A DNA stretch of 37,949 nt from contig JAMORG010000054.1 in NCBI GenBank assembly GCA_027063745.1, forward strand, positions 1-37,949, given 5' to 3'. Source of the stretch: Sulfurimonas sp. (lineage in GTDB: Bacteria; Campylobacterota; Campylobacteria; Campylobacterales; Sulfurimonadaceae). Numbering within the stretch: position 1 is the stretch's first letter; each line of letters begins with the position of its first letter. The notes under the pieces were generated by a model. It searched no databases, was not told where the DNA came from, and saw only the letters and a list, made by a program, of their open reading frames with translations. Shown here in pieces: positions 3,350 to 31,955 of the stretch. Both the position numbers and the translations under genes were made by a program.

Positions 3350-6300
3350 TTAATCATTATTTTCCTTTCGTGCTTGACTTCTTGAGTAGCTTAATGAGTT
3401 AAGCCCGATATTTTTCAATATCTCTTGTCTTGGTGTTCTAGGCTCTACAACTTTATTTCTTCTTCTATTTTTTTTGCTTCTTGCTAAACTCTCGATTAAG
3501 TTCCAACCACTATAAGCTTGAGCAGGTAGTGGCACATAGCTTTGTGTTAGGTACTTTGCATAGTCGTATGCTTTTTGTCCTGCACCTTTGTTTTTATATG
3601 TAACAGGTCGCCCATAATATGGATTTATCATTCCTGCTTTACTTGGTGCAGTGAGTGTATTTACTACTGCATTTGTTGTTGGACCACTTATATTAGATAC
3701 AAAAAAGTTTATAGGATCAGTTAGCTCAATGTATGGTATCCATCTATCAGTCTTTAAAGTATGTATAGTGTCTCCACTTCTTCCTATGCCAAACCTACGC
3801 CCTTTGAAGTCTTCTGGCTTGTTTCCACCATAAAAAGGAATATTATCAAGTGGAGTTACTGCTCCACCTGTAAGTACATATTCAAGTCCTGCTAGTGTTC
3901 CCATTGCAAGAGCTGCTTTTTTTGCACCCTGCTTTGTTTTAAGAAGTTTCCAAATAGCAGGCATTGTGTAATAACTCCACGATATAAAAGGACTTATTCC
4001 TGTATCCCTTAATGCTCTAAAACCTTTAGGCATAGGCTTAGAATAATCCGGCATTATTGTTAGAACTGCTTTTCTTGCTTCATCTTTACTCATACCAACT
4101 TTTTCTCTTAGATGCGCATACATTGCTATTTTATTTATAGCATCTTCCCCGTGATACATATCCTCACTAAACTTATCTATCTTTCCAAGCACACCTTTTT
4201 TCTCAAGCTTTTGCTCTCCTGCAAGTATGTCATTTAACTGGCTTCTTCCAAGTAATCCACCATCTTTAGCCTCTAAGAAGTATTTTAAATCTTCTCCCAT
4301 CTCTTCAAGCTCTTTTAAGTCTGCTTTTGTTGCCTGTCCTAGCATCTTTTTTTGCATCAGTTTCTCAAGTCTGCTACCTTCATACATCATCTTTCCTGCA
4401 CGACCTATTGCTGTAACAATCTCATCAGCTCTCATTCCTGCTAAGTGCATTAAAAACTGATTGCTCATAAAGTTATTAATATGTGATGGAACATTCCAAA
4501 CAGTTTTTGACTTTTTCCAAAGAGATAAATAGTTTTTCCATATCCTCGCAAAAGCTCCATCGCTTCCATGAAAAGTATTAAATATCTCATCATTTCTAGC
4601 ACTAATATCATCAAACACATCTTTTCGTATATGTTTTCCTGCAAGCACCCCATATTTAGGACTGTTTGGAGCTTTTATGAAACCTGCTGCACTTATCTCA
4701 TCATCACTAAACTTCTCAGCATCTTTGAGTATTACTTCATCAATCTTTGATACATCTTCTAAAAACTTTGCATTATCTGCCATTCTTTTTAATCGCATAA
4801 GAGTCTCAGGAATTGTTATAGCACCATCTCTTATCTCATTCATAGCATCGCGTTCTGCTCTGGTCCAATCTCTTCTTAGCTCATATTTTCCATTTGCCAG
4901 TTTTTGAAGTCTAACACCACCATCTCGTAAAGGTTTTTGCGTATTTGCTATAAACTTAGGATCAACAAGTAACTTTTTAGCTTCTTTTTCACTTATTACT
5001 TGTATATTACCTCGTTTGTGTATATCATCAATCTTAAAACCTTTTTTCATAAGATTTTTTACATCTTTAAAAAAGTGTTGCTCATAATTTCTATGTATGT
5101 AGTACCCTGCCCACTCGTCATATTGTTCCTGTGTTAATACACCCTTTGATACTAAATCCTTGCTTAAATTATCAATATCTTGTTTAAGCTTGTCAGCAAG
5201 TGGTTTTAGAGTTGGATTTATATCCTTTGTCTCTCCGGCTATGTAGTCATGCAATGAAACACGATCCGCTTCATTTAGCTCTTTTAAGGCTTTATGTAGC
5301 CTCTCAAGCTTAACACTCATACCATTTGTTGAAGCAGTTGCACTCTCTCTTAAATCGTGATATTTTGCTCCTAAAGTATCAAAAAACCATCTTTCTAATG
5401 TACTTGCAGCATCTCCCCACTCTTTTTGAGCCTCTTTGCTTACTATTTTAGATACATGGGCATAACCTTTTTTCTTTGCTTCTTTTACTTTGTTTAAAAA
5501 CTCCTCTTTAGTTTGACTCATTTGTTTGTCTTGTGGTATAATCTCATCAGCACTTCGGTTTTCCCACTTATTGAGTGCGGATGTTTTACCTTTATTGGTC
5601 GTGCTTTTTGCACCGCTGGAGTGCTTGAAATACATCAAGTTACCATCAGTAGCTTTTATCATATTCTTTATACTTCCAATATCTTTATTAAATGATGTTA
5701 TCTGTTTCAAGTTTCCATTATTATCTTTTACTATCCCTACATAATGAACAAGTCCATTTTCATCTTTGTATGGTTTGTAATATTCTATCTGCTTTTTAAT
5801 AGGATTTTTTATAACAAAAAGTGGCTCTTCAAGTGCATCTTTAAATGCTCCGGTTAGCCAAGCTCTATCTTGAAAATATGTATTATCTGTAAAGTGCTTG
5901 TATATCTTTGATACATTAAAAGAAACATCGCCTATCGGAGTTTTAACTTTTGTCCATTCCCTGGTATTAAACATATTTTTAAATTCTTGAAAGCTTAAAG
6001 GCTTCGGCAACTCGCTAGCATCTTTCATTATCTCATTTTCAAGTACCCTATCACTACTTTTATTGAGATACTTATCTTCTAACTCTCTTGCGTGTTTTTG
6101 AGTAAGTCCATCAATGAGAGCATCATCGCTGTTATTAAATCGCATTACTGCATCTTCCGGTGCAATATCTTCACTACTGAATGGTGTTATCTTCTCTCTT
6201 TGCTCTGGGGTATAGTCTGCCCTTGCCTGAACATCTCTTGCTTCTATCTCTCCTGCGAGCTTCTGATACATATTAAAAGCTTCCTCTTTACCACCATCTT

Positions 6301-9300
6301 TATATTTACTCTCAAGCTCACTAAGCTGCTTTAGCTTTTTATCTCTTATGAAATCATCTGGCTCAAACTCTAACTCATATTTTAAAAGATTTATCTTTTT
6401 CTTGAAGTCATTATAAAACTCTTGTGCTGATCCTCCACGCGCAAAGCCTTCCTCTTTTTGAATAGAGTGTTGCAACTCATGCAATAGAGTAGATTTAAAG
6501 TCATCTTTCGTTTTAAAGTCTTTCATACCTACCTCTATTCCATCTCTTGAAAAACTTGATCCACTGCCATTGTGAAACTTAATATTTATATCTTTTAACT
6601 CTGGGTAATTATCAAATAACTCTTTATGATCCAGTATATTTTCAAGCTTTGTTCCTTCTTTAGTATTTACATATCTAGCTAGATTTTTTAACTTAGCTTT
6701 ACTATCATCAATCTCAAACCGCTCTAAAGTATCATATTTTCCATCAAAAGTCTTTCCGGAACTCTTTGCAGCATCAAAACCTTTTGCCTTGCTACCTGCG
6801 AATAGTCCAGCTTTAAATCCGCCCTCTTCTTCTTCAAAGAGTTTAGGTGCTGCTTTTTTAAGTGCATTTATTCCTACTGCTCCTATTCCTGCACCTATTA
6901 AAATATCAATAAGGTCTGTTTTCCCATCTCCATTATAATCTCTTTGATTTATAGCGGTATCACTTCCGCCTGCAAAAGCGCCTGCCATTGTATGCGTAGG
7001 ATTTACAAATAAAATACCCTCTTTTTCTGCAACTTTTGCTATCTTTTCAGCTCTTGCACCATCTATTTTAGGATTATATTTTGATACTTTCAAGCCCTTT
7101 TTCTTTAGTAATTCTATAGTTTCTTTGCTAGTACCATTTGGAACTAAAGCTACTTTGAACTCTCCTAAATCAACTTTTCTAAGTATCTTAGTTTCAAAAT
7201 ATTCAGTTGGCATCTCTTGCATTGCTGTTTTTAGATTTTCAATATCATCTTTTATACTTTTTGGTAAGTCTTTAATACCGTACTCATTTAATACTCTATC
7301 AAGTGGAGCATCTGCAATTTCTGATAAAATTCCGTTTAGTGTATCATTTGAAAAACTGGTGTTTCCTGTATGCTCATTCAAAGCATCAGATATTTTAAAG
7401 TATTCATCCTCTACCTCTTTTTTAACAACTTCAAATTCATCTTTAGAAACAAGTCTATCTTTTGCTTTTTGTATCTGTGCTAGTGATTTAAACTGTGGTG
7501 TGTGTAATGCTCTTATACTTCCTGTTCCATAGTTAAAGCCCTCTCCACCTCTTAAATCTTTTTTTAGTTTTTTAACTACATTATCTATGTTGTGGTCTAT
7601 CCACTTTTGCCTGCCGTTTCTATCTGTACCGTTATAAATTTTTTCTTCTGCTCCATGCTGTTTATAATAATCATCTACATAATCTTTAAACTCTTGCTTG
7701 TGTTTTTTGTCTATAATCTTAGATACATTTGATCGTGTTGCATAAAAATCCGGTGATTTCCCTTTTTCAATTTTTCTTAGTGTATCTTTCATTATTTGAG
7801 CATAATTTTTTGCAACTCTTTGTATTTGCGTTTCGCTCCAATCGTTTATATCATCGCCTATTTTATTTTTCAAAAACTCTTTAACTTTTGAGATAAACTT
7901 ATCATCATTCACATAGTCTCTGTTTAATTTTCCATCTTCATAAAAAGGCTTAAATGTTTTTGCAATTTCTATATTCTCTTTTTTTGGTGCATCATATTTT
8001 AAAACTTTATCTTTCTTATATCCTTTGCTTTCAAGGAATTTCATTTTTAAGCCTATATCATCTATAAGATTATCGACATCTACATACCCGCCTCTAGCTA
8101 CTAAATCGTGATATTTATCTAAATCATCTTCAATATTTCTAATTGCTTTATGTGATAATTGTTTTTTTATTTGTGGGTATCGTGGACTGTAAATATCTGC
8201 ACCATAAGTTTTAGTGTCTCTTTTAGGTGTTATTATCTCTTTATCACCTAAAAGTGTAATATTTCCAAAACCATCAAGCGGAGTATCTTTTTTAGTAACT
8301 GCAATACTTGGTACTGCTAAACCTCCTTGCTTATCAGCAAACTTTACATTATCCTCAGTAAGGTTGTGCTGTGCTATTAAATCTTTTTCTTCTTTTTGAG
8401 CTTTACTTTTAACTGGACTCATAGAGTTAAAACTATTTCCACGCTTCTGCACCTCTGGGTTAAAGTTTACCCTATCAAGTGCATCTACTGCAATATCTTT
8501 TAACTTACCTCTTATTGTTCCATTTTTAAGTGCTTGTTTGACTGCTGTATATCCACCTAAACCTAAGATAAACTTCTCAGGATCAAAAGTTATATTTCCG
8601 TTTTCATCCTGTCCTATTCCTGCATACGCTCCAACTGCTACATTGTCTAAACCTTTTGCAAAAACTGCATTTGCTTCTTCCCATTCACTTGGTGATAGCT
8701 TAACATCTGTATCATCAAGCTTTGCAAGTTCTGCTTTGTAGTCAATATTATTTTCACTATTAAATGACTTCGCATAGTCTGGGTGATTATCTAAAGTGCT
8801 TAAATCAGTTTCAAGCTTACTAAGAAGATCATCATCATATTTTCCTTTGTAAAGCTTATCTACATCACCTTTTGTTAAATGAAAATCATGCGCATAGTTT
8901 TTCTCGTAAACTGCTCTATCGTAAGCGTGCTTATTCTCTCCACCATATCCATCAAGCTCTCTATATCCACCTTTGCTTACCAACCTTTGTGGACTTCTTG
9001 CATCTTTGGCACTTACACTTTCTCTCATGCTTAATAGCTCTTGTAGTCGTGGGTGTGCTGCTATTTTTTGGTATCTCTGCATTAATTCCGCATCTGCATT
9101 ATATGGTACCGGTATGTTATTGTTAAAATCTCCACTTACAAAGTTTGGATTATAAGGCTGTTCTGGTTGCTGTGGATAAATACTCTCTTTAGTATATTGT
9201 GGTTGTACTTCGTATTTATGTTGATAAATAGGTTCTAAACCTTGTGCTACCCTCTTTTTATCTGCTTCTTTTGCCAATACTTCTAAGGCTGTATTTATAT

Positions 9301-10168
9301 CCATTGTTGCAGGTGGATTGTTCGGTCTCATTTGGAAATTTGGCTCTTTTTTAGCACCAAAGCCCGCCTGCTCTACTTTGTAAGCATCCGGTACTTTTGG
9401 ATATTTTCCTTGCAAAATCTCTCCGCTAATTGCTTCTGTTTCTTGTGGCGATAATCCTAGAGCGTCTGCATTATTTAAGATCGCGCTTGCTATGTCTTCA
9501 TCACTTTTTGCGCCTTGTACCATTTCAGGCTTAATTACATTATTTACCCTGCCTTTTGTAAAAGCGGATATAATGCCATTTAGTCCTGCAACTATGCCTG
9601 CACCAATCTCTGCATTATGCACTTTCTCTGTTGTACTCATTGCATCGTTTCCATAGTCTTTTGCAGCCATAGTTCCTGCGCCAATACCTGCACCTAAACC
9701 CATACTTGTTGCTACTGCTCTTGGTTTTGTTTTGGTTGCACCAACTGCTAATTTTTCAATAAGACTTCCTGCCTTACCTATTTTTTGCCCTTTAGATACT
9801 ATTCCTGCTGGTGTAAGATTTAAAGGGTCTCCTATCATTTCTCCTGCTAGTCCAACCCATTCATTGTCTATATTTCTATCTAGTGTCTGACTTGCTACTC
9901 TTGCCCTGTTTTGTAAAGATTTATTACCAAACAGTTTAGCTGCCGATGCTGTGTAGTCTGTAATATTTTTTGCTGCTCCGTGAATAAAATCCTCTGCAAA
10001 ATCTGGTATATACTCATCTATTTTATCCATTCTTACTTGACTATTATTCTGCTCTTGTTTAAACTTAGCATAAAGCGGATCTTGTTTGTATGATGAATTT
10101 TGTTGCTGATTATTTTGTGATTGTTCTTGCTTGAATTTCTTATAAAGAGGATCTTGTCTGTAGTCCAT
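3350..10168 (-). CDS. 2272-aa polyvalent-type phage protein (LPD38-like C-terminus, HExxH metalloprotease-like domain, putative nuclease-like domain)
   Basis: Single ORF; HELQHSIQKEEGFARGG...GEIEARDVQAR; C-terminal NVPSHINNFMSNQFLMHLAGM / ISPFISWSYYTMPAIWKLL region typical of large polyvalent proteins. Confidence 0.8.
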   Translation of the reverse strand: MDYRQDPLYKKFKQEQSQNNQQQNSSYKQDPLYAKFKQEQNNSQVRMDKIDEYIPDFAEDFIHGAAKNITDYTASAAKLFGNKSLQNRARVASQTLDRNIDNEWVGLAGEMIGDPLNLTPAGIVSKGQKIGKAGSLIEKLAVGATKTKPRAVATSMGLGAGIGAGTMAAKDYGNDAMSTTEKVHNAEIGAGIVAGLNGIISAFTKGRVNNVIKPEMVQGAKSDEDIASAILNNADALGLSPQETEAISGEILQGKYPKVPDAYKVEQAGFGAKKEPNFQMRPNNPPATMDINTALEVLAKEADKKRVAQGLEPIYQHKYEVQPQYTKESIYPQQPEQPYNPNFVSGDFNNNIPVPYNADAELMQRYQKIAAHPRLQELLSMRESVSAKDARSPQRLVSKGGYRELDGYGGENKHAYDRAVYEKNYAHDFHLTKGDVDKLYKGKYDDDLLSKLETDLSTLDNHPDYAKSFNSENNIDYKAELAKLDDTDVKLSPSEWEEANAVFAKGLDNVAVGAYAGIGQDENGNITFDPEKFILGLGGYTAVKQALKNGTIRGKLKDIAVDALDRVNFNPEVQKRGNSFNSMSPVKSKAQKEEKDLIAQHNLTEDNVKFADKQGGLAVPSIAVTKKDTPLDGFGNITLLGDKEIITPKRDTKTYGADIYSPRYPQIKKQLSHKAIRNIEDDLDKYHDLVARGGYVDVDNLIDDIGLKMKFLESKGYKKDKVLKYDAPKKENIEIAKTFKPFYEDGKLNRDYVNDDKFISKVKEFLKNKIGDDINDWSETQIQRVAKNYAQIMKDTLRKIEKGKSPDFYATRSNVSKIIDKKHKQEFKDYVDDYYKQHGAEEKIYNGTDRNGRQKWIDHNIDNVVKKLKKDLRGGEGFNYGTGSIRALHTPQFKSLAQIQKAKDRLVSKDEFEVVKKEVEDEYFKISDALNEHTGNTSFSNDTLNGILSEIADAPLDRVLNEYGIKDLPKSIKDDIENLKTAMQEMPTEYFETKILRKVDLGEFKVALVPNGTSKETIELLKKKGLKVSKYNPKIDGARAEKIAKVAEKEGILFVNPTHTMAGAFAGGSDTAINQRDYNGDGKTDLIDILIGAGIGAVGINALKKAAPKLFEEEEGGFKAGLFAGSKAKGFDAAKSSGKTFDGKYDTLERFEIDDSKAKLKNLARYVNTKEGTKLENILDHKELFDNYPELKDINIKFHNGSGSSFSRDGIEVGMKDFKTKDDFKSTLLHELQHSIQKEEGFARGGSAQEFYNDFKKKINLLKYELEFEPDDFIRDKKLKQLSELESKYKDGGKEEAFNMYQKLAGEIEARDVQARADYTPEQREKITPFSSEDIAPEDAVMRFNNSDDALIDGLTQKHARELEDKYLNKSSDRVLENEIMKDASELPKPLSFQEFKNMFNTREWTKVKTPIGDVSFNVSKIYKHFTDNTYFQDRAWLTGAFKDALEEPLFVIKNPIKKQIEYYKPYKDENGLVHYVGIVKDNNGNLKQITSFNKDIGSIKNMIKATDGNLMYFKHSSGAKSTTNKGKTSALNKWENRSADEIIPQDKQMSQTKEEFLNKVKEAKKKGYAHVSKIVSKEAQKEWGDAASTLERWFFDTLGAKYHDLRESATASTNGMSVKLERLHKALKELNEADRVSLHDYIAGETKDINPTLKPLADKLKQDIDNLSKDLVSKGVLTQEQYDEWAGYYIHRNYEQHFFKDVKNLMKKGFKIDDIHKRGNIQVISEKEAKKLLVDPKFIANTQKPLRDGGVRLQKLANGKYELRRDWTRAERDAMNEIRDGAITIPETLMRLKRMADNAKFLEDVSKIDEVILKDAEKFSDDEISAAGFIKAPNSPKYGVLAGKHIRKDVFDDISARNDEIFNTFHGSDGAFARIWKNYLSLWKKSKTVWNVPSHINNFMSNQFLMHLAGMRADEIVTAIGRAGKMMYEGSRLEKLMQKKMLGQATKADLKELEEMGEDLKYFLEAKDGGLLGRSQLNDILAGEQKLEKKGVLGKIDKFSEDMYHGEDAINKIAMYAHLREKVGMSKDEARKAVLTIMPDYSKPMPKGFRALRDTGISPFISWSYYTMPAIWKLLKTKQGAKKAALAMGTLAGLEYVLTGGAVTPLDNIPFYGGNKPEDFKGRRFGIGRSGDTIHTLKTDRWIPYIELTDPINFFVSNISGPTTNAVVNTLTAPSKAGMINPYYGRPVTYKNKGAGQKAYDYAKYLTQSYVPLPAQAYSGWNLIESLARSKKNRRRNKVVEPRTPRQEILKNIGLNSLSYSRSQARKENND

Positions 10169-27172: not shown

Positions 27173-27446
27173 CTTCTATCTCCTTTCGTAATCTTTTTAT
27201 TCTGTAAATATTTACATCAAAACCAATATCTTCAAAATGCTTTAGTATGTCTTCATCAGGCATACCCTTATCTACGATACACTCTAGTATCATGTATCTC
27301 TCTATGCTTTTTGGCGTTAGCGTAAACTTAGCACTTGGGTATCGTCTTGCAACACTCAGTGCCTTTGCCCCATCGCCTCCGAACAACTCGTTAATGAGAA
27401 AATATGTGTTAATCTCATTCGTACTTGGTTTTTTATCTTCTACCAT
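27153..27446 (-). CDS. Hypothetical protein between TerL and portal
   Basis: 97-aa ORF overlapping both neighbours by a few bases. Confidence 0.6.
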   Translation of the reverse strand: MVEDKKPSTNEINTYFLINELFGGDGAKALSVARRYPSAKFTLTPKSIERYMILECIVDKGMPDEDILKHFEDIGFDVNIYRIKRLRKEIEDGKREF

Positions 27447-29827
27447 GATGCAAACTCCTCATCTATTTCATCTGCATAAATATCTCTCTCGTGATACTCT
27501 TCAACTTCTTCTGCTGTTGCTATCACTGTGTTACTTGCAAGTGCCATTGCATCTGCAATATCTGGACTTCTCCCTAGTGCCTCTTTTATCTCCTTTTTAG
27601 ATATGATTTGAATTACTCCTTTTTCTGTGATTTTAAATCTCTGTGCTGATAACTCGCCTATTGCTGCATCATCATCAAACATTTTCCCCTCTTCTTCAAG
27701 GATCTTCTTGAGCTTGTAGTAAAGTTCTGCTCTGAGATTGAGGTAAATATCAGGTCGTGAAGGATTCTCGCTTACTTTACAACCTATTGCCGGTATATTT
27801 GTGTACTGTGGCTCATTAAGCACGCTCATAAGTCCGCTGCCCTCGCCTATGCTGTCTATAAAAATAGCTTTAGGCTCTCTTCCTTTTGCCTTTGCACTCA
27901 AATACTCTTCTGCCAACCACCTAGCAGTATTAACCTGTCTGTGCTTCCCTGTAATAGGACACTCTTTTTTCTCATAAAAATAATTCCCTACTCTTTTAAC
28001 AAGTATAGTTCTATCATCTCCTGCATCTGCATAGTCCAATCCCCACACTTCCGCACCATAGTCGTTATAATCATCTCCAATATTCAAAGCATCTTCAATG
28101 ATATACATAGGGATAACCGCATCACTTGATGTTCTAGGGAAACGACCTTGTACCCTTACTCTGTAAGCATCGCTATCAACTCCGTACTCTTTTTTCTTAC
28201 GCTCTATACTCTCCTTTGTAACATTCTCACTCTCTTCTGCATTAAATACATGAATTTTCCATAGCTCTCTGTTTTTGTGATGTGAGTCATAGAAATATCC
28301 ATCGGTCCTTGTAGGGTTGGCAGTAAGCAGCCGTAAATGCTCCTCTCCTGTTAAACTTCCCTCGATTACTTCAAAGATTGTGTTAGGAACTCCACTCGCT
28401 TCGTCTATAATCCAACACAAAAAAGTAGCGTGAAAACCTTGCAAACCCTCGGGTGCTTCTTTTCTTGCTGTTCTTGCCACACATTGATTATTATTACAAA
28501 AAGCTACGCTGTCATTTTTTACTACTACACACTCTTTAAGTTCTTTTGGTAGTTTTTCACGCCATTTTCTAACCTCTGGTAATAACAATCTTACAAGCTG
28601 CGGTGCTGTCGGCGCTGTTGCCGGTATCTTTGCATCGTATTTGAACAAGCCTACCCATAAAATAACCCATGATAAGAGAGTAGATTTACCTGTATTATGT
28701 AAAACCGTAAAATCCCCACCTAAAAACTTATGATTTCCATCCAATTCAAAACCGTAATAATCGCCTATTCCTAAACACTCAACTGATTTAATGCCAAAGT
28801 GTAAATTACTTCTTTGGCTTGGTATATCTTTGTTTATTTTGTGTCTTTTGCAAGGGATAATCTCCGTATTTCTACCGATACTTAATCTATAATAATCTAT
28901 ACCTTTAACTGTTTTGATTTTAATTGTTGTATGAAGTCCTACACTCTTACAAAGATACTGCATATCTTTTGCCAACTGAATAAACTTTGTAATAAATTCA
29001 TATTGTCTTTTTTCTAAGCTTCCATCTGTGTCTAATAAACCTGCGATTAACTCCAATCTCTGTTTTTTGCTTGATGTTAAATATTGCTTGGGTATATGTT
29101 TATTTTTTAATAAATTTAAGGATTTTAACTCTTGTTTTAACTCTAATTTATATTTATTACAATTATTTTGAGTATTTTTATATGTTAAAGTATTTTCTAA
29201 ACTTCTGATATACTCTGCAACTGCATCTTTTTTATTACCCATCCAAATATAATCATTACTGCTTCCACCATCTCCTAGCCACGCTCCTAAAATATAAGGA
29301 TGAATTAAAAGGTTTTTTTCACTAAACTCTGTTGAATTTCTATAAATAGCATGAGTTCTTTTTCTTCTATCACTCCATTTAAGATAATCCTCTACTGTAA
29401 CTGTTACTTTATCCCCTGTTATCTGTTTTCCGTGTGTTTGAGTAGCAACTAAGCATAAAATATGAGACTTATTAAAAATATGCTCTGTATTATCTCTATA
29501 CACAAACCGATACATTTCTTCTCGACCTCTGTATAACTCTAAAACATTCCGCTCACTTTTTCCATCATCTCCCATAAGCTTATCGCCCACTTTTATATCT
29601 TGAACTGCTTTTATGCTTCCATCACTTAGCATTATTTCTGTATCTATTCCAAAACATCCATGACCTGATGCGATGCTTATATCTTTAACTCCTGCGTCTA
29701 TATCTCTTAATACTGCTTTTTGTTGGCTTGATGGACTTCTATCACTCTTTGCAAACAAACACTCATCTACAAATAGTTCTATGCTTGAAGCCCATCTCTC
29801 TAGCAGTTCTTTAGTTTTCATCAGCAT
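27440..29827 (-). CDS. terL: Terminase large subunit interrupted by an intein
   Basis: Walker A restored as SGHG|TGKST across the intein, Walker B FLCWIIDEA, nuclease region VWGLDYADAGDDRT, AIFIDSIGEGSG, PDIADAMALA. ORF opens at 29866; start at 29827 or 29821 more likely. Confidence 0.9.
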   Translation of the reverse strand: MLMKTKELLERWASSIELFVDECLFAKSDRSPSSQQKAVLRDIDAGVKDISIASGHGCFGIDTEIMLSDGSIKAVQDIKVGDKLMGDDGKSERNVLELYRGREEMYRFVYRDNTEHIFNKSHILCLVATQTHGKQITGDKVTVTVEDYLKWSDRRKRTHAIYRNSTEFSEKNLLIHPYILGAWLGDGGSSNDYIWMGNKKDAVAEYIRSLENTLTYKNTQNNCNKYKLELKQELKSLNLLKNKHIPKQYLTSSKKQRLELIAGLLDTDGSLEKRQYEFITKFIQLAKDMQYLCKSVGLHTTIKIKTVKGIDYYRLSIGRNTEIIPCKRHKINKDIPSQRSNLHFGIKSVECLGIGDYYGFELDGNHKFLGGDFTVLHNTGKSTLLSWVILWVGLFKYDAKIPATAPTAPQLVRLLLPEVRKWREKLPKELKECVVVKNDSVAFCNNNQCVARTARKEAPEGLQGFHATFLCWIIDEASGVPNTIFEVIEGSLTGEEHLRLLTANPTRTDGYFYDSHHKNRELWKIHVFNAEESENVTKESIERKKKEYGVDSDAYRVRVQGRFPRTSSDAVIPMYIIEDALNIGDDYNDYGAEVWGLDYADAGDDRTILVKRVGNYFYEKKECPITGKHRQVNTARWLAEEYLSAKAKGREPKAIFIDSIGEGSGLMSVLNEPQYTNIPAIGCKVSENPSRPDIYLNLRAELYYKLKKILEEEGKMFDDDAAIGELSAQRFKITEKGVIQIISKKEIKEALGRSPDIADAMALASNTVIATAEEVEEYHERDIYADEIDEEFASW
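28694..29656 (-). mobile_element. 321-aa LAGLIDADG intein in TerL
   Basis: Begins CFGIDTEIMLSDGSIKAVQDIKVGDKLMG, DOD motifs ILGAWLGDGGS and LIAGLLDTDGS, ends GFELDGNHKFLGGDFTVLHN followed by extein T. Confidence 0.93.
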
Positions 29828-30317
29828 TGCTCTTTTGCTTATTTTTGTTGTAGAAATACTCTGCAAACTCTGCTAGTGATATGTCGCTACTTTTTTGCTT
29901 GTTGTCTTTCTCGTAGTAGCCTAGTATCTTTCCTATCTCAACCAAAGCACCCTTTGCACTTGCTAAATTTGTATCCCTCATCTCAACTTCAATCGTATTC
30001 GTTATTCCATCTCCTGCACCCTCTGTTACAATATGACTACTTGAAACATCGCCTATACCTATCTCAAAGATGCGTGTATGAGCTTTAATTATTTTCTCTA
30101 CACTCCACTTGCTCTCTTCTTCTGCTTTGGCTTGTAGCTCTTTTAACCTTGTGGTAATATTGTGGTTACTTAAAAGCTTTGATGCACTTTCTATAATCGT
30201 TTTATCTTTCATTCTTGAAGTAGAATAAGCATAACGATAAGCTTCGCTAGCATTACCACACTCAAAATATTTAAGTACGAATTTCTCTTGCTTTACTGTT
30301 AGCTTTTTACTCATCAC
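29811..30317 (-). CDS. terS: Terminase small subunit
   Basis: KLTVKQEKFVLKYFECGNASEAYRYAYSTSRMKDKTIIESASKLLSNHNITTRLKELQ matches the Terminase_2 style. Confidence 0.88.
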   Translation of the reverse strand: MMSKKLTVKQEKFVLKYFECGNASEAYRYAYSTSRMKDKTIIESASKLLSNHNITTRLKELQAKAEEESKWSVEKIIKAHTRIFEIGIGDVSSSHIVTEGAGDGITNTIEVEMRDTNLASAKGALVEIGKILGYYEKDNKQKSSDISLAEFAEYFYNKNKQKSNADEN

Positions 30318-31037: not shown

Positions 31038-31227
31038 ACACCAACCCCTTATAATTCTCATCCGCCCACTTCATAGCTCTATCGGCTGTTCTAAAGTTTT
31101 TCTCTGTGTATCTCTCTAAGTTCTTGTCTGCAACTGTAAAGCCCATCAATGTAAAGTTTTCATCTACAACACCTGCTATGATGTATGGCTTGTCTTGTCT
31201 GTTTGAATAATTGATTAGTTTTAGCAT
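31027..31227 (-). CDS. Hypothetical protein
   Basis: 66-aa ORF coupled to both neighbours. Confidence 0.55.
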   Translation of the reverse strand: MLKLINYSNRQDKPYIIAGVVDENFTLMGFTVADKNLERYTEKNFRTADRAMKWADENYKGLVYED

Positions 31228-31955
31228 TACTCACATATCCCGTACTGATTTACACATTGATTTTCATTTCCCATCTCTAAAGTAGGTCTTAAATGCTTGT
31301 CTCTATCAGGTGCAAAAAAAGTCGCATTTTTTTGATTATCTACAATCTCACTCATATCTTTTTCAAGTCTCCTAAGTCTTTGAACATACTTATCTTCCAT
31401 AAGCATAAGCTCGTGCTTTCTTGCATAGATACACGGGTAACATCCAACACGGCTAAAACCTTTTTTATAGAGCGGATTAACATCAATGCCGTTTTCTTTG
31501 TGATAATCAAATACTCGCTGTGTGCTCCAATACGCAATAGGATATAAAGTCTTTATTCCGTCTTGTGAAATTGCAAAACTCTCTGTATTTGCTCTTGCTT
31601 CGCTTTCATCTCGTCTTACGCCTGTGATATTTATAAAGTCAATTCCTTTATCTTGAAAAGTCTTATAAAACTCAATAGCAGGCTTTATTTTTAAATTTTC
31701 CGTACAAAATCTAAACATTCTATTTGGCATCATTTTTTTTCGCTTACTAAGGGCTTCCATCCCCTCACTTTCTAATCTAATTATTTCAACATCAAGCTTC
31801 TCTTCAAGATAATCAAGATACTCATAAACTGCATCGTGTTCCCATTTAGTGTCTATGTAATATGGGAGGATGTCCTCTTTTGGAAGAGTATTTAACGCCC
31901 ACAATAAACACGCTGTACTGTCTTTACCACCGCTTAGGCTTACTAGATATTTCAT
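31227..31955 (-). CDS. PAPS-reductase-family (PP-loop) protein
   Basis: LSGGKDSTACLLWAL PP-loop; RFCTENLKIKP; GCYPCIYARKHE. Confidence 0.85.
   Translation of the reverse strand: MKYLVSLSGGKDSTACLLWALNTLPKEDILPYYIDTKWEHDAVYEYLDYLEEKLDVEIIRLESEGMEALSKRKKMMPNRMFRFCTENLKIKPAIEFYKTFQDKGIDFINITGVRRDESEARANTESFAISQDGIKTLYPIAYWSTQRVFDYHKENGIDVNPLYKKGFSRVGCYPCIYARKHELMLMEDKYVQRLRRLEKDMSEIVDNQKNATFFAPDRDKHLRPTLEMGNENQCVNQYGICE

Follow-up and report, generated by a model that had tools for sequence, protein, structure and literature searches.

Among the closest described counterparts of the locus reported here are the TerL1-a and TerL1-b inteins of mycobacteriophages, some of which have active homing endonucleases. 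They reside in the Walker A loop of a phage terminase large subunit (TerL), and the ATP site is rebuilt by splicing (PMC5050341). That survey gives seven intein sites in TerL or terminase-like proteins, two of them in the P-loop, and states that all five terminase inteins tested spliced readily and that two cut intein-free TerL. It also discusses regulatory roles. The TerL of cyanophage Mic1 carries two inteins, for which a biosensor role in packaging has been proposed (PMC7156551). Published work already covers inteins in the P-loop of TerL, shows that they splice and can cut alleles lacking the intein, and raises the possibility that they set the timing of packaging.

The DNA analyzed here, referred to as the window, is the whole of a Sulfurimonas sp. 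contig of 37,949 nucleotides (positions 1-37949). Its ends share a 103-base overlap, and therefore it probably represents a complete phage genome, circular as assembled and about 37.85 kb in size, with recT split by the contig ends. Since genes for an integrase, a CI-like repressor and RecT/exonuclease are present, the phage is read as temperate, and its terL intein is that of a temperate phage in a Campylobacterota bin. The placement of the bin and its relatives in Campylobacterota of the Sulfurimonas/Sulfurovum kind is a judgement based on named contigs with related DnaB inteins and on genus-mates that share the same DnaB inteins. The terL precursor is encoded on the minus strand, as are all window features described below, by a single uninterrupted open reading frame (27440-29866; 808 aa from TTG). 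Residues 71-391 of this precursor, flanked by SGHG and TGKST, are a 321-aa in-frame intein (28694-29656) with the edges C...HN, which interrupts the Walker A loop (SGHG|TGKST). This is the position at which the sequence-only reading had placed a LAGLIDADG intein; every coordinate was right, and the motifs, Pfam, the AlphaFold2 model and the match to PI-SceI agree with it. That the interrupted protein is TerL is also borne out. The precursor frame falls in phrog_2 (terminase large subunit), the joined extein, with the intein removed, matches the same family with 4.2e-39, and terL is adjoined by the portal gene and by terS for the small terminase subunit, which lies just upstream (29811-30317; phrog_51, 1.8e-22). 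An extein of 487 aa, as first proposed, results only if the upstream TTG is taken as the start; alignment with relatives points to ATG 29821 or 29827 as the likely start and thus to 472 or 474 aa. The N-extein, with its start inferred by alignment with the related viral contig L011, comprises 55 aa from ATG 29821 and ends in SGHG (29657-29821), while alignment with intein-free TerLs delimits a C-extein that starts with TGKST (27440-28693, stop codon included).

The intein has the complete anatomy of class 1. Block A (CFGIDTEIML, 29627-29656) starts with the nucleophile Cys1 (codon 29656-29654), and C1 and T6 are invariant in 11 inteins. Block B (NKSHIL, 29456-29473) reads N62-K-S-H65, with Asn where Thr is usual (T-x-x-H); this Asn is common to 73 of 73 aligned relatives, in which H65 is likewise invariant. 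The two LAGLIDADG dodecapeptides are LGAWLGDGG (29264-29290) and IAGLLDTDG (29021-29047), both of which keep the catalytic aspartate (Asp129 and Asp211), and the C-terminal blocks F and G, YYGFELDGNHKFLGGDFTVLHN (28694-28759), end in His-Asn and are followed by Thr at position +1 (VLHN|T). The sequence NKHIP begins at 29104. Profile searches, which had been suggested as a check, returned Hom_end_hint (PF05203) with 6.4e-18 at residues 71-145 of the open reading frame and LAGLIDADG_3 (PF14528) with 1.2e-7 in the middle of the intein, both above the gathering cut-off. AlphaFold2, supplied with a 73-sequence alignment, yielded a confident model (pLDDT 94.2, pTM 0.91), for which the PI-SceI miniprecursor was the top Foldseek match (E 3e-25, TM 0.81); together with PF05203, the Foldseek matches to the PI-SceI and Prp8 inteins establish the Hint fold. 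The GC content is 30% for the intein and 39% for the extein. Chance as the source of these features is excluded; this is a real, full-length class 1 LAGLIDADG intein of the textbook kind that is probably active.

Although PI-SceI, the yeast VMA1 intein, is the best PDB match in both sequence and fold and likewise combines Hint and LAGLIDADG parts, it is larger (454 aa) and has no P-loop GK site. The idea that it shares the exact P-loop site was dropped, as the PDB alignment shows a C-extein beginning with CGE.

The commonest intein site in the Walker A loop is K|S/T. In the window, the cut within this loop lies three residues upstream of Lys|Ser, at G|TGK. This register sets the intein apart from the two mycobacteriophage alleles, since TerL1-a separates Lys from Thr and TerL1-b is shifted by one residue. 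In sequence, the window intein is only about 27-29% identical to its mycobacteriophage TerL matches. The same register in TerL is occupied in Vibrio phage pYD38-A (JF974312; GGRG|SGKT), and the G|TGK site is therefore not new to databases; the pYD38-A intein, however, is only about 30% identical, has Ser at +1, and resides in a protein annotated only as large terminase subunit. Inteins of the same clade occur in the same register in Acinetobacter boissieri (SGHG|TGKT) and Methylovulum (SGHS|TGKT), but these stem from gammaproteobacterial genomes and share 53% and 48% identity, respectively, with that of the window. A literature search that covered the accessible text of PMC5050341 and PMC7156551, with most subscription journals outside its range, found neither the G|TGK site in TerL nor an earlier report of TerL inteins in Campylobacterota.

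Close phage relatives provide empty as well as occupied alleles. Three related phages (L004, L005 and L006) encode TerLs that are 97% identical to that of the window, and three more (L007, L008 and L010) share 87-90% identity; SGHGTGKST is uninterrupted in all six, which align unbroken across G|T. A break in the alignment of intein-free homologs at this point would have refuted the sequence-only reading, which thus passed its own test. On the occupied side, viral contig 3300026484_000341 has an identical locus with a 100% identical intein, and viral contig 3300026512_000370 (L011) carries a 94% identical intein at the same site. The intein, as judged from these alleles, is polymorphic among close phage relatives; it comes and goes. 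A TerL from a genome of the same order (L081/G056) contains a mini-intein of 207 aa at the same site, which is 60-73% identical to the window intein and from which the central endonuclease region is gone, as expected for a late stage of the homing cycle. Two further loci stand out. In L171 (1-10), a 79% identical intein has Trp instead of Cys as its first residue, but the residue is found at the edge of a contig, where a sequencing error may account for it. Another TerL (L066, 1729-4218) has an intein-like block at GK|S (GK|MHSYEM...THN|S) whose first position shows no obvious Cys or Ser.

Nearly all of 160 related inteins in genomes and viral contigs reside in P-loops. GK|T is the site of most of them, in DnaB and helicases, whereas G|TGK or G|SGK is used by a minority. 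A tree built by maximum likelihood unites 15 inteins at G|TGK with a single GK|T intein from a TerL-like protein in a clade (support 99/95) that reaches Gammaproteobacteria with the A. boissieri and Methylovulum contigs. Inside this clade, the inteins of the window, L011 and L171 cluster with the mini-intein (support 100/98). The site label switches a few times on the tree, and the register is strongly, if imperfectly, inherited. The DnaB inteins of Sulfurimonas, Sulfurovum and other Campylobacterota belong to the same family, are about 40% identical, lie in a P-loop and come from the host's own lineage. However, they are inserted at GK|T of DnaB and fall in a separate clade. An origin from a DnaB intein of the host, considered because the same genus carries many, was rejected on the strength of this tree. 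We tentatively suggest, at somewhat less than even chances, that a TerL-specific lineage homes to the single P-loop register G|TGK and moves among phages whose hosts belong to different bacterial phyla, and that related phages here display all stages of its homing cycle, with empty, full-length and endonuclease-deleted alleles. As an aside, DnaB inteins at GK|T (L077-L083, L091 onward) are frequent in Bacteroidota as well as in these Campylobacterota, and one helicase-like open reading frame of Vibrio phage PS65A.1 (L075) apparently holds two inteins, one at GK|T and one before CHHVL.

Comparison of the window with L011 yields a dS of 0.24 for the intein versus 0.96 for the C-extein and 1.45 for the N-extein. 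Synonymous differences affect 38 of 186 sites in the intein and 162 of 294 in the extein (Fisher p 3e-14). Going by these values, the intein shares a younger common ancestor than the surrounding terL. This fits homing, but recombination without the endonuclease could also contribute: phage genomes are mosaic, and the apparent youth of the intein could be due in part to ordinary exchange. The two inteins are most alike in their first 435 bases, in a tract that starts at the 5' edge, and their identity drops from 97-98% in the 5' half to 85-93% in the 3' half, so that more than one exchange may underlie the gradient. Purifying selection is seen in the splicing part as well as in the endonuclease part, with dN/dS values for the latter of 0.15 against L011 and 0.135 against L171. 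Just upstream of the intein, the window and L004 differ at 25 of 88 bases, compared with 6 mismatches in about 266 flanking bases. Although this contrast is real, it was not taken as proof of a co-conversion tract, since these phages are mosaic and contain comparable divergent stretches at other places, and since either lineage may be the one that changed.

We are highly confident in the following joint reading: a full-length class 1 LAGLIDADG intein resides in terL of a temperate Campylobacterota phage, would splice to give an active ATPase, would home into intein-free terL and is probably a neutral or slightly costly selfish element. By analogy with known intein chemistry, Cys1 would attack the Gly-Cys bond, the thioester would then be transferred to Thr+1, Asn321 would cyclize, and SGHG and TGKST would be ligated to form the active packaging ATPase. 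That splicing would have to precede ATPase function follows from the insertion site and published TerL modelling (PMC5050341). For mobility, the endonuclease would cut intein-free terL in a co-infected or lysogenized cell and repair would copy the intein in. The proposal that the endonuclease targets intein-free relatives has gained ground, as the empty alleles and the dS contrast favor endonuclease-driven movement between related phages. The intein is probably a selfish element placed where imprecise loss is impossible, with an effect on the phage that is probably neutral or slightly costly.

In principle, the intein could splice while its endonuclease is dead or without targets, and its presence or absence could reflect ordinary phage recombination or loss. 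The mosaic flanks, with divergent tracts 480-570 and 870-1000 bases upstream, are compatible with this, as are the 6 to 10 differences from the window that empty alleles show in the 40 bases around the insertion site and the same-site relative that already lacks the endonuclease. We nevertheless regard this explanation as rather unlikely, if well worth keeping in mind, because the Lys block and the two catalytic aspartates are retained, the endonuclease part is under purifying selection (dN/dS 0.13-0.15) and the high-identity tract shared with L011 begins at the 5' edge of the intein.

Far less probable is that the intein acts as a conditional switch, holding packaging back until splicing is triggered by some signal. 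The intein does interrupt the ATP-binding loop of an enzyme that is essential late in infection, and proposals of this kind have been made for the TerL proteins of mycobacteriophages (PMC5050341) and of Mic1 (PMC7156551). However, sister phages with 97% identical TerL manage without it, which argues that no switch role is required; the five mycobacteriophage TerL inteins tested spliced readily (PMC5050341), and the sequence showed no sensor feature. The earlier suggestion of a role in timing or conditioning packaging, already in print for these other phages, thus finds no support in the sequence. Even though the contig is metagenomic, an assembly or frame artefact is practically inconceivable given the identical locus in 3300026484_000341, the 94% identical one in 3300026512_000370 and further same-site relatives in other taxa. 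A selfish mobile intein is the most economical reading.

Because close relatives carry alleles that are empty, occupied or eroded, substrates for studying phage-to-phage homing are at hand, and sister phages with and without the intein lend themselves to comparison when the idea that TerL inteins time packaging is examined. Otherwise, the locus adds a further well-supported phage intein, in the host group Campylobacterota.

Two other genes of the phage deserve mention. A protein of 2272 aa (3350-10168) contains a PBECR5 domain at residues 589-797 (Pfam 6e-20), that is, a Barnase-EndoU-ColicinE5/D-RelE-like nuclease domain, here inside a very large phage protein. Upstream of the packaging genes lies a phosphoadenosine phosphosulfate reductase-like gene (31227-31955; phrog_424, 1.8e-55), which is a frequent phage accessory gene.
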